Assembly (NCBI RefSeq): GCF_013170705.1
Contig: NZ_CP033334.1
Span: 496,001-560,000, forward strand
Source: Mesorhizobium loti
Lineage (GTDB): Bacteria > Pseudomonadota > Alphaproteobacteria > Rhizobiales > Rhizobiaceae
Length of the DNA: 64,000 nt
Direction: 5' to 3'
Of the stretch, positions 48,421-50,728 are shown piece by piece (position 1 is the first letter of the stretch; the number at the start of each line of letters is the position of its first letter). A program made the translations under genes and the position numbers. A model generated the notes under the pieces. The model did no database searches, had not been told where the DNA came from, and saw nothing but the letters and a program-made list of their open reading frames with translations.

Positions 48421-48469
48421 GTTCAACCAGTAGCCTCGCGCCTGTTGCTGCAGCATCGCCATTCCCATA

Positions 48470-48493
48470 TAGTCAAGATAGTCAGACTAGTCA
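48470..48493 (+). promoter_or_regulatory. Three TAGTCA direct repeats at 9-base spacing, upstream of toxin-antitoxin genes
   Basis: TAGTCA occurs at 48470, 48479 and 48488 with exact 9-base period, ending 12 bases before the antitoxin start. The last two copies also make a GACTAGTC palindrome. Phd/YefM antitoxins autoregulate by binding such repeats over their own promoter, so this is the likely operator. Confidence 0.6.
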
Positions 48494-48504
48494 TGGAGAT
48501 TGAG

Positions 48505-48768
48505 ATGCTGCCTGTGGCCAAAGATACGAGCTGGACGGTCGCTGGGGCAAAGGCTCGGCTCTCGGAGGTTATCGAGCGCGCGCAGTCTTCTCCGCAGACG
48601 ATCACCAAAAACGGCAAACCAAGCGTGGTTGTCGTCTCGGCCGAGGAATGGCAGCGAAAGACCGCGCGCAAGGGTACGCTTGCGCAGTTCCTGCTGGAGT
48701 CACCGCTGCGCGGCGCCGATCTCGACCTCGAGCGCCAGCGTGACGAACCGCGTGACCTGCCGCTGTGA
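48505..48768 (+). CDS. Type II antitoxin, Phd/YefM family
   Basis: An 87-residue antitoxin. The DNA-binding N-terminal domain reads SWTVAGAKARLSEVIERAQ followed by ITKNGKPSVVVVSAEEWQ, the Phd/YefM pattern. The C-terminus is the toxin-binding tail with many charged residues (ADLDLERQRDEPRDLPL). ATG 48505 has GGAG 6 bases upstream; an in-frame ATG at 48493 is possible. Its stop overlaps the toxin start (GTGA), as usual for these pairs. Confidence 0.88.
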   Translation: MLPVAKDTSWTVAGAKARLSEVIERAQSSPQTITKNGKPSVVVVSAEEWQRKTARKGTLAQFLLESPLRGADLDLERQRDEPRDLPL

Positions 48769-49187
48769 GGCTGCTGCTCGATACGAATGTCCTGTCCGAG
48801 GTGACAAGGCCGGGGCCAGACGCGCGCGTTCTGGACTGGCTGGACGGGCTTGATGAGGATCGCTCATTCATCAGTGTCGTGTCGATCGCCGAGATCCGGC
48901 GTGGCGTCGCCCTCATGGACGAGGGCCGGAAACGCAAGGCACTGGCCGAATGGCTCGCCCGAGACCTGCCGCAGCGTTTCGAGCAAAGGATTTTGCCTGT
49001 GGACGAGCCGGTTGCCCTGGCCTGGGGCGACCTTATAGGCCTTGCGAAGCGTCGCGGTCGCGGCCTGTCGTCAATGGACGGGCTGATCGCAGCCACGGCG
49101 ATTGCGCAGCGGCTAACCTTGGTAACGCGCAATACCAGGGATTTCGAAGGCTTTGGGATAGAACTCCTCGATCCCTGGACGGCATGA
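48765..49187 (+). CDS. vapC: Type II toxin, VapC-type PIN-domain ribonuclease
   Basis: A 140-residue PIN nuclease. Acidic active-site residues are visible at Asp6 (LLLDTNVLSE), Glu43 (SIAEIRRG) and Asp105 (SSMDGLIAATA), with a fourth position near Asn123/Asp126 (TRNTRDFEGFG). It begins at GTG 48765 inside the antitoxin stop, so expression is coupled. Family members cleave tRNA or rRNA. All catalytic residues are intact, so the toxin is probably active. Confidence 0.92.
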   Translation: MRLLLDTNVLSEVTRPGPDARVLDWLDGLDEDRSFISVVSIAEIRRGVALMDEGRKRKALAEWLARDLPQRFEQRILPVDEPVALAWGDLIGLAKRRGRGLSSMDGLIAATAIAQRLTLVTRNTRDFEGFGIELLDPWTA

Positions 49188-49209: not shown

Positions 49210-49397
49210 CTTCGTCATCCACGGGCGGAGCAAGGAGCGCAGCGACGCGGCGCGGACCCTGGACTCCATGCCGGGGCTCGAAAGCGTTGCCGCGGTGCAG
49301 AATTCTGCTTCGCTGCACCCTTCGACCGAGGTCGCGGAATGGATCCCAGGGTCTCCGCGACGGAGCTTGGCTCCTGCTTCGCCCAGGGATGACAAAA
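49210..49397. repeat. Repeat family D, copy 1 (about 190 bases)
   Basis: It runs from CTTCGTCATCC to AGGGATGACAAAAT and contains AGCAAGGAGCGCAGCGACGC and CTCCGCGACGGAGCTT. It matches 59846-60137 block by block, with the second copy interrupted by a 98-base insertion. It has no coding potential and lies between the toxin gene and the aroG leader. Confidence 0.8.
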
Positions 49398-49466
49398 TCG
49401 CGAGGGTTCGGCCTCCCCGGAATTGACTGCCATCAAAGACGTGACAAGCGCCTCGGCTTCGATTAT

Positions 49467-49547
49467 ATGAGCGGCATGATCCACCTGTCCGCCACCTATT
49501 GGTACTTTAGCAGCTCGCTGGCGGCGGGAGGATTGCGCTCGATCTGA
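49467..49547 (+). CDS. Leader peptide of the DAHP synthase gene (26 aa) with Tyr-Trp-Tyr-Phe codons
   Basis: A 26-codon frame upstream of aroG. Codons 11-14 (49497-49508) are TAT TGG TAC TTT, giving consecutive Tyr, Trp, Tyr and Phe, an arrangement expected for an aromatic amino acid attenuator sensing all three end products. A second Met codon lies at 49476. No strong ribosome binding site is seen. The segment CTGGCGGC inside the frame (49518-49525) can pair with the 5' arm of the downstream terminator, so ribosome stalling at the aromatic codons would favour antitermination. Confidence 0.75.
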   Translation: MSGMIHLSATYWYFSSSLAAGGLRSI

Positions 49548-49571
49548 AGATTGCAGCAACAACATCCGAAC

Positions 49572-49596
49572 AGCCGCCAGACCTGGCGGCTTTTTT
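49572..49596 (+). terminator. Attenuator terminator upstream of aroG
   Basis: Arms AGCCGCCAG (49572-49580) and CTGGCGGCT (49583-49591) followed by a T run to 49596 make a classic rho-independent terminator 41 bases before the aroG start. The 3' arm is identical in sequence to leader segment 49518-49525, so the 5' arm can pair with either, giving mutually exclusive antiterminator and terminator. Confidence 0.8.
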
Positions 49597-49636
49597 GTTT
49601 CAGCCGGCAGGTCTCCTAAACCAGGAGCAGAAAGCC

Positions 49637-50728
49637 GTGTTGACCACCACAGACGACCTTCGGGTCAAGGAAATCCGAGAACTGAGCACGCCGGACCAGG
49701 TGATGCGGGAAATCCCGCGCACGCTGACGGCGACGCGCACCGTCAGCGCGTCACGCAATGCCATCCACGCCATTCTGAACGGGTCCGACGACCGGTTGCT
49801 TGTCGTCGTCGGGCCCTGTTCGATCCACGATCCGGTCGCGGCCGTTGATTATGCCAGCCGTCTGGCGGCGCTGCGCGAAACCCTGTCCGACCGGCTCGAG
49901 ATCGTCATGCGGGTCTACTTCGAGAAGCCGCGCACCACGGTCGGCTGGAAAGGGTTGATCAACGATCCCGACCTTGACGGCAGCTTCAACATCGACAAGG
50001 GGCTGCGGATGGCGCGCAATGTGCTGTCGGCCGTCAACAATCTCGGCCTGCCGGCGGCGACCGAATTCCTCGACATGACCACCCCGCAATACATTGCCGA
50101 CCTCGTCGCCTGGGGCGCGATCGGCGCGCGCACGACCGAGAGCCAGATCCACCGTGAACTGGCATCGGGCCTGTCCTGCCCGGTCGGCTTCAAGAACGGC
50201 ACCGACGGCAATCTCAGGATCGCCGGCGAGGCGGTGAAATCCGCTGCCCAGCCGCACCATTTCATGGCGGTGACCAAGGGCGGACGCAGCGGCATCGCGA
50301 CCACCACCGGCAATGAGGACTGCCATGTCATCCTGCGCGGCGGCGTCCAGCCCAATTATGACGCGGCGAGCGTCGAGGCGGCCTCGGTCGAACTCGCCCG
50401 CATCGGCGTCGCGCCAAGGCTGATGATCGATGTCAGCCACGCCAACTCGAGCAAGAAGCCGGAGAACCAGCCAAAGGTGGCGGCCGACGTGGCAGGCCAG
50501 GTCGCGGCGGGCGACGAGCGCATCATCGGCTTGATGATCGAGAGCAATCTCGTCGCCGGACGACAGGACGTCGTGCCTGGCAAGCCGCTGGTCTACGGCC
50601 AGAGCATCACCGATGGCTGTATCGACTGGGCGACCACCGAGACCGTATTGCACGGCCTTGCCGGTGCCGTCGAATGGCGCCGGTCGGCGCGCCGCGCCAT
50701 GCTGGAGAGCCGGCAGGGAGCCGCCTGA
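49637..50728 (+). CDS. aroG: 3-deoxy-7-phosphoheptulonate (DAHP) synthase, class I
   Basis: A 363-residue enzyme of the AroF/G/H type, condensing PEP and erythrose 4-phosphate at the head of the shikimate pathway. Motifs are VVVGPCSIHDP, MRVYFEKPRTTVGWKGLINDP, GARTTESQIHRELASGLS, FKNGTDGN and DVSHANSSKKPENQP (metal ligand His). GTG 49637 with AGGAG 9 bases upstream is the best start; there is no ATG. The leader peptide and terminator upstream indicate control by transcription attenuation. Confidence 0.94.
   Translation: MLTTTDDLRVKEIRELSTPDQVMREIPRTLTATRTVSASRNAIHAILNGSDDRLLVVVGPCSIHDPVAAVDYASRLAALRETLSDRLEIVMRVYFEKPRTTVGWKGLINDPDLDGSFNIDKGLRMARNVLSAVNNLGLPAATEFLDMTTPQYIADLVAWGAIGARTTESQIHRELASGLSCPVGFKNGTDGNLRIAGEAVKSAAQPHHFMAVTKGGRSGIATTTGNEDCHVILRGGVQPNYDAASVEAASVELARIGVAPRLMIDVSHANSSKKPENQPKVAADVAGQVAAGDERIIGLMIESNLVAGRQDVVPGKPLVYGQSITDGCIDWATTETVLHGLAGAVEWRRSARRAMLESRQGAA

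Follow-up and report, generated by a model that had tools for sequence, protein, structure and literature searches.

DAHP synthase governs flow into the whole shikimate pathway, and the best-known control at the gene level is that by TyrR and TrpR in enterobacteria (excerpts of PMC5343134). How might its gene be controlled in Mesorhizobium loti? We addressed this question in a stretch of 64,000 nucleotides of the M. loti genome (contig NZ_CP033334.1, positions 496,001 to 560,000; hereafter the window, with coordinates counted from its first letter). Here aroG (49637-50728, on the + strand like all features of the module below) encodes a class I-alpha DAHP synthase of 363 aa, as indicated by TIGR00034 aroFGH (523.5 bits, cut-off 173.2).

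A putative attenuator precedes aroG

Upstream of aroG, the proposed regulated gene, positions 49441-49640 of the Mesorhizobium window contain a promoter-like pair of hexamers, a short frame with aromatic codons, a segment named R2 and an intrinsic terminator. The leader frame (49476-49547, MIHLSATYWYFSSSLAAGGLRSI) comprises 23 codons followed by TGA (49545-49547). The aromatic run given in the initial annotation of this DNA is read directly at 49497-49508 as TAT TGG TAC TTT (Tyr-Trp-Tyr-Phe), and these are the predicted stall codons. R2 (49518-49525, CTGGCGGC), the antiterminator 5' arm according to covariation and folding, matches the terminator 3' arm R4 (49583-49591, CTGGCGGCT), as had also been pointed out. 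The terminator 5' arm R3 (49572-49580, AGCCGCCAG), supported by covariation as is R4, would be used by the antiterminator too, and an early leader segment, R1 (49478-49494), would be able to pair with R2 and sequester it. The T run of the intrinsic terminator is read directly at 49591-49596. Thus the terminator with its T run is present at 49572-49596 as first described, but in folding it forms 8 bp with a closing GACC tetraloop, not 9-base arms with a 2-base loop. A Shine-Dalgarno-like AGGAG, read directly at 49623-49627, stands ahead of the GTG start of aroG at 49637.

We consider it very probable that this region is a ribosome-mediated (classical) transcription attenuator. Deep conservation supports this reading, already put forward in the initial annotation, as do the covariation among R2, R3 and R4 and the tight linkage to aroG. 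Several features by which an attenuator is recognised are found here: a leader ORF with a run of end-product codons, an intrinsic terminator between the leader ORF and the first structural gene, a mutually exclusive antiterminator that uses the terminator 5' arm (in sequence and in folding), and a regulated gene in the pathway of the sensed amino acids (aroFGH, in the window and in relatives). Sequence and conservation show the leader frame with its aromatic codons, the competing helices and the link to aroG, whereas the transcription start, ribosome stalling, termination in the cell and the amino acids sensed are inferred.

In a strict terminator scan of both strands of the window, this terminator was the only one returned (at two offsets), and four consecutive aromatic codons lie within the 130 bases before it. 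Among 30 shuffles of the window that preserved dinucleotides, none contained such a pair of terminator and four aromatic codons, and one contained a terminator alone. The folding of the leader region (49467-49600) is only moderately better than that of shuffled sequences (z of -2.22, with 6 of 200 shuffles equally good). Conservation is a stronger test than the shuffle scan.

The leader mRNA is probably leaderless

The predicted leader promoter consists of a -35 hexamer GTGACA (49441-49446) and, 17 bases after it, a -10 hexamer TATATG (49464-49469), which ends 6 bases before the ATG at 49476. We compared 57 distinct alphaproteobacterial upstream stretches, 33 of which come from the genus, so that many are near-copies. 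GTGACA is found in 51 of the 57, the spacing of 17 in 55, and a distance of 6-7 bases from the -10 hexamer to the leader ATG in 52. The exceptions for this distance are L059 (8 bases), L070 (9) and L114 (10), together with L016 (12) and L056 (13), for which the later of two in-frame ATGs was counted. Because the hexamers, their spacing and the short distance to the ATG are conserved, the predicted transcript probably starts at or next to the leader ATG, which would make the leader mRNA leaderless.

These observations also bear on the length of the frame. The initial annotation had given 26 codons from 49467, but the ATG at 49467-49469 coincides with the 3' half of the -10 hexamer, and an in-frame ATG at the corresponding position is absent from relatives such as L010, L011 and L030; moreover, L011 carries an in-frame TAA 12 bases upstream of the conserved ATG. 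For these reasons, the leader frame most likely has 23 codons and starts at the conserved ATG at 49476.

R2, R3 and R4 form competing helices

In an alignment of aroG upstream regions from relatives, a comparison suggested in the initial annotation, aromatic codons are kept before R2, and R2, R3 and R4 covary at some positions. In the alignment of 53 leaders (A3), R2 and R3 pair in 86.3% of cells, compared to 17.0-50.7% when slid by 1-3 columns, and both partners differ in 21 cells, where shuffles average 5.9. R3 and R4 pair in 96.6% of cells; here both partners differ in 31 cells, where shuffles average 7.4. Counts by pair are not clearly above shuffles: the number of pairs changed on both sides was equalled by 50 (R2:R3) and 47 (R3:R4) of 500 shuffles, and the number of further pair types by 211 and 130 of 500, respectively. 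Three of the outer R2:R3 positions lack pairing in 13, 15 and 27 of the 53 leaders.

One position changes jointly in R2, R3 and R4, from T/A/T to A/T/A (2) and to C/G/C (2). Moreover, a G-C pair of R2 and R3 is replaced by A-U in five leaders of one clade only (L016-L019, L090), where a G-U pair keeps R3:R4. The covariation events are few because related sequences share their changes, as this confinement to a single clade illustrates. R2 begins in frame 0 in 42 leaders and in frame 2 in 11, and codes for residues as unlike as LAAGG, SQRMR and SRWQP; it is therefore kept as RNA, not as peptide.

The Tyr, Trp, Tyr and Phe codons of the window start 21, 18, 15 and 12 bases upstream of R2. The nearest aromatic codon starts 12 bases before R2 in 29 of the 53 leaders (range 8-18), a distance that fits a stalled ribosome just leaving R2 free. 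With the RNA ending at 49581 and a ribosome occupying any one of the four codons, all 8 R2:R3 pairs formed in folding at about -29 kcal/mol, and comparable ribosome-placed folding gave at least 5 R2:R3 pairs in 53 of 53 leaders. With the RNA extended to 49601, the antiterminator is the minimum for a ribosome on Tyr 49497 or Phe 49506, and the terminator wins by at most 3.1 kcal/mol when Trp 49500 is occupied and by at most 0.7 kcal/mol when Tyr 49503 is, judging from shorter folds. Because the terminator is the full-length minimum for these two codons, the switch would rely on R2:R3 forming before R4 is made; other attenuators likewise rely on an antiterminator that forms before the terminator 3' arm.

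We thus propose the following course of events. A ribosome would begin at 49476 on the probably leaderless mRNA and, when tRNA charged with Tyr, Trp or Phe runs short, would stall at 49497-49508. The stall would disrupt R1:R2 and let R2 pair with R3 ahead of the synthesis of R4, so that the terminator would not form and aroG would be transcribed. With all tRNAs charged, the ribosome would reach the stop codon, R3:R4 would form and transcription would end near 49596.

Two further pairings were considered. The R1:R2 duplex has a predicted energy of -24.4 kcal/mol in the window, but it is not supported as a general feature of the leaders: folding finds the helix in 33 of 53, and its covariation in the alphaproteobacterial alignment is at chance (equalled or exceeded by 307 of 1000 shuffles). 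Folding and alignment also suggest a possible second antiterminator helix, between GGAT (49530-49533) and ATCC (49564-49567), which is the weakest part of the module. It reads CGGG(T)/(A)CCCG in L016-L019 and L090; 5 of 53 leaders have no pairing of at least 4 at the positions examined, and several pair at other positions.

The leader may respond to more than one aromatic amino acid

All 53 leaders carry both Phe and Tyr codons before R2, and 34 carry a Trp codon there (19 of 23 alphaproteobacterial leaders and 15 of 30 others). The suggestion in the initial annotation that one leader serves all three aromatic amino acids thus fits the genus but not the whole group. The best reading of these codons is that attenuation would respond to Phe and Tyr, plus Trp where that codon occurs.

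Only one amino acid, for example Phe or Tyr, might matter, the remaining aromatic codons being incidental. The lack of a Trp codon before R2 in 19 of the 53 leaders points this way, as does codon choice: Phe is encoded by TTT in 45 of 48 codons of 29 alphaproteobacterial leaders, compared to the window's long ORFs with high GC3 (76 of 456) and its aroG (0 of 5), whereas Tyr is without such a bias (TAT in 33 of 71 codons in the alphaproteobacterial leaders and 127 of 242 in the long ORFs). The preference for TTT may serve sensitivity or keep the aromatic run unpaired. However, Phe and Tyr codons are both universal among the leaders, and the four Mesorhizobium codons all lie 12-21 bases before R2, each of them freeing R2 in the model when occupied. 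We regard a response to a single amino acid as unlikely. Leaders of this type offer a natural case for studying how a single leader might weigh three amino acids.

The leader is conserved with aroG

A covariance model was built from the 53 leaders of A3, all of them aroG leaders. Of 146 genomes of the genus, 138 gave a full-length match, with E-values no higher than 4.5e-22. aroG is likewise present in 138 of the 146, and the eight genomes missed by the model are exactly the eight without aroG (G308, G325, G326, G357, G358, G360, G368 and G422); G360 gave no match, and the other seven gave only weak ones (E 7.7e-6 or worse), those listed being partial. Among the genus loci from genome searches examined by the leader/terminator scan, the leader lies directly upstream of aroG in 33 of 33. 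In the family sample, 16 of 297 genomes have aroG, one of them (G281) as a weak fragment, and a leader and terminator precede the gene at 14 of the remaining 15 loci, the exception being L015 (G272).

An automatic scan of 123 aroG loci found leader and terminator in 97, and a looser scan found an aromatic frame and terminator in six more (L058, L061, L071, L091, L097 and L107). The full set is absent from the other 20, one of which (L079) had just 52 upstream bases given. At three others of these 20 (L015, L093 and L111), the aromatic frame is present and the usual terminator absent. Two variants in layout were seen: L038, L040 and L045 have ~60 extra bases between terminator and aroG, which places the leader ATG at -220 to -224 compared to about -160 in other members of the genus, and in L091 (Candidatus Burkholderia humilis) the leader frame after the aromatic run differs from that of relatives.

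In a phylum sample of 398 genomes, 225 contain aroFGH above its cut-off; the gene and model searches covered the same genomes as far as these are listed, and adjacency of match and gene was judged from coordinates or tblastn. The model matched beside aroFGH in 23 of 23 alphaproteobacteria that have the gene, and in 25 of 202 such genomes outside Alphaproteobacteria. The latter fall into five families of the sample: f46 (6 of 6), f43 (10 of 11), f66 (6 of 10), f71 (2 of 3) and f77 (1 of 1). Altogether 56 genomes of this sample have a model match, eight beyond the 48 beside aroFGH. Those in G596, G768, G784 and G807 are Phe_leader according to Rfam, those in G626, G703 and G724 belong to the same family as G596 and G768, and the one in G543 was judged false by eye.

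A class sample of 385 genomes gave 15 with a match. Thirteen of these matches adjoin aroG (two of them shared with the phylum sample), L194 was left out of the count as a contig end cuts its match, and L202 was rejected. L202, which follows an argB-looking frame by eye (E 1.5e-7), and L208 (E 7.3e-7) are false matches of the model; matches weaker than ~1e-7 were not trusted alone, and two of that strength (G634 and G788) do adjoin aroG. In these samples, the module appears near universal with aroG in Alphaproteobacteria and common in some beta- and gammaproteobacterial families; in the other beta- and gammaproteobacterial families sampled, including enterobacteria and vibrios, it was not found beside the gene. 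The module is not peculiar to this genome: in many Alphaproteobacteria, Xanthomonadales and Burkholderiales it precedes aroG as well.

Gene and leader seem to be inherited together

A quick tree was computed from 110 AroG proteins, with L079 and L104 excluded in advance, near-copies dropped and leader labels taken from the leader/terminator scans and model matches. Support was by SH-aLRT alone; of the 107 inner branches 46 stay open, and the placement of some long rows is unsure. One starred branch holds 45 rows, namely 36 alphaproteobacterial and 9 Xanthomonadales (named or clustering), and 44 of them carry the leader; L120, a row named Lysobacterales, lies outside it. The leader label needs 8 changes on the tree, compared to a shuffled mean of 31.7. 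Gene and leader seem to have been inherited together and were perhaps transferred together, as far as the tree can tell.

The sole row without a leader label in this branch is L015, which keeps the aromatic frame and has no usual T-run terminator. We considered whether its aroG is a broken gene and rejected this, the only stop in it being at codon 359 of 360 matched, which is the natural end of the gene.

A broader reading, somewhat less likely than not, would make the aroG leaders one ancient attenuator family, missing from the catalogues and shared by Alphaproteobacteria, Xanthomonadales and Burkholderiales. It would read all aromatic amino acids at once, a shortage of any one sufficing, and sensor and class I-alpha DAHP synthase gene would have been handed down as a single unit; in Alphaproteobacteria it would work on a leaderless mRNA, and its terminated RNA or peptide may act in trans like trpL.

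Taken by itself, action of the terminated leader RNA or peptide in trans, besides attenuation, as for rnTrpL and peTrpL of Sinorhizobium meliloti, seems quite improbable. The trpL transcript of S. meliloti is leaderless too and its products act in trans (excerpts of PMC7298713), and the promoter layout here resembles that of trpL. However, the leader peptide beyond the aromatic run is not kept between lineages.

The diversity of the peptides also bears on whether the frame could encode a sensor of nascent-peptide arrest, in which a free aromatic amino acid or another ligand would stall the ribosome via the peptide, in a TnaC-like manner. A conserved short aromatic peptide before a terminator would fit such a sensor as well, but an arrest peptide is expected to keep fixed residues and the peptides here diverge (YWYF, SFYWYF, RFYSYR, FYFYFFWHL, FFTGYFYF), sharing mainly their aromatic content and the distance to R2. 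Moreover, a high level of the amino acid would then raise aroG expression, which would presumably make little sense for a biosynthetic gene. We hold this explanation to be very improbable. In a further reading, the hairpin would simply terminate transcription of the vapC-like gene upstream, as terminators can indeed end upstream transcripts, and the aromatic frame would be a product of chance. This was rejected as barely conceivable, given the predicted promoter between that gene and the terminator, a leader that is kept while the sequence upstream of it varies among relatives, and a module that travels with aroG.

Relation to known attenuators

The ribosome-mediated attenuator that we favour for aroG was compared with the catalogued families. 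No family of Rfam 15 reaches its cut-off in the window, where RF01859 Phe_leader scores 20.0 bits (cut-off 55) and RF00513 Trp_leader 13.2 bits (cut-off 41). At six aroG-leader loci, the only Phe_leader match listed was in L062 (30.5 bits, under the cut-off of 55), and at 20 further loci there was no Phe_leader match at E up to 1; the leader thus passes the Rfam cut-off at 0 of the 26 loci tested, the window's own included. For eight leader peptides, NCBIfam gave no family at E up to 1, and a protein search with the leader peptide, which is very short for this purpose, gave nothing. Membership of a known Rfam or NCBIfam family was accordingly rejected for the window, the leaders and the leader peptides.

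Phe_leader, the family of the Phe attenuators of Gammaproteobacteria (pheL-pheA, pheM-pheST), likewise has a leader frame rich in Phe codons and a GC-rich terminator with a T run. It regulates other genes, and in the aroG leaders codons for Tyr and Phe are mixed, often along with Trp. The aroG-leader model matches four members of Phe_leader (L203-L206), which are above Rfam's own cut-off, but these matches are weak (E 8.6e-10 to 4.2e-7) and near that of the false L202; they suggest that the two kinds of leader work alike and are no proof of a common origin. Enterobacterial ilv and thr leaders also combine codons for several amino acids in one leader, a trait shared with the aroG module, and differ from it in having branched-chain or Thr/Ile codons and in preceding other genes.

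Closer in lineage, the trpL-trpE(G) attenuator of S. meliloti is alphaproteobacterial too and its transcript begins at the leader ATG; in the runs given in the excerpts of PMC7298713 it has Trp codons only, and by eye its likeness to the aroG leader is limited to aromatic codons. Closer in target, uORFC-13-1 is a predicted uORF attenuator that also stands ahead of a DAHP synthase gene, Acholeplasma aroF. It belongs to another phylum, with 24 representatives, a U run coding for at least 1 Phe and a structure of its own, and the sections of PMC8632094 available to us give no Tyr-Trp-Tyr-Phe run for it. Attenuation has further been proposed for aroF-tyrA and aroH in E. coli and Shewanella, and in Vibrio in a web list of putative attenuators that holds the Vibrio operon and some in other phyla (parts of PMC2659441, PMC8632094 and PMC1173090); these are DAHP synthase genes with proposed leader control, as here. 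Among the families of the phylum sample that cluster with enterobacteria or vibrios, no model match at E 1e-6 or better adjoins aroFGH, and the named loci L117-L119, L121, L124 and L126 have no model match.

No description of the aroG module was found in the accessible portions of PMC8632094, PMC2659441, PMC7298713, PMC1173090, PMC2965389, PMC5343134, PMC1262725, PMC3039613, PMC4833913 and PMC1183508. The initial suggestion that the module may be undescribed therefore holds for Rfam 15 and the open-access literature searched; an earlier description, for instance in older comparative studies of attenuation or aromatic regulation, is possible. The aroG leader is common to many bacteria and has no Rfam family, and its putative mechanism is of a known kind. 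The module is a concrete proposal for RNA control of aroG in Alphaproteobacteria, Xanthomonadales and Burkholderiales, and the aroG leaders are a candidate family for RNA catalogues.

Neighbouring sequences

The same genome encodes a type II DAHP synthase (G000:C1:4380639-4381964, L129), whose 400 upstream bases contain neither three successive aromatic codons nor four successive Ts. In the window, an intergenic repeat (49225-49420) lies directly upstream of the predicted promoter. The matches listed for it place it at 54 sites in the genome, counting itself and some sites on both strands, and the best other copies span most of the repeat at ~75-83% identity. Further upstream (48445-49187), a short frame, antitoxin-like by eye, is followed by the VapC-like PIN gene (NF047863, 48.1 bits, under its cut-off of 140). 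At two loci of other genomes, a Cobalamin riboswitch match (116-119 bits) is found near the module: in L188 (1107-1292) ~200 bases upstream of it on the other strand, and in L191 (2811-3017) ~80 bases after aroG.
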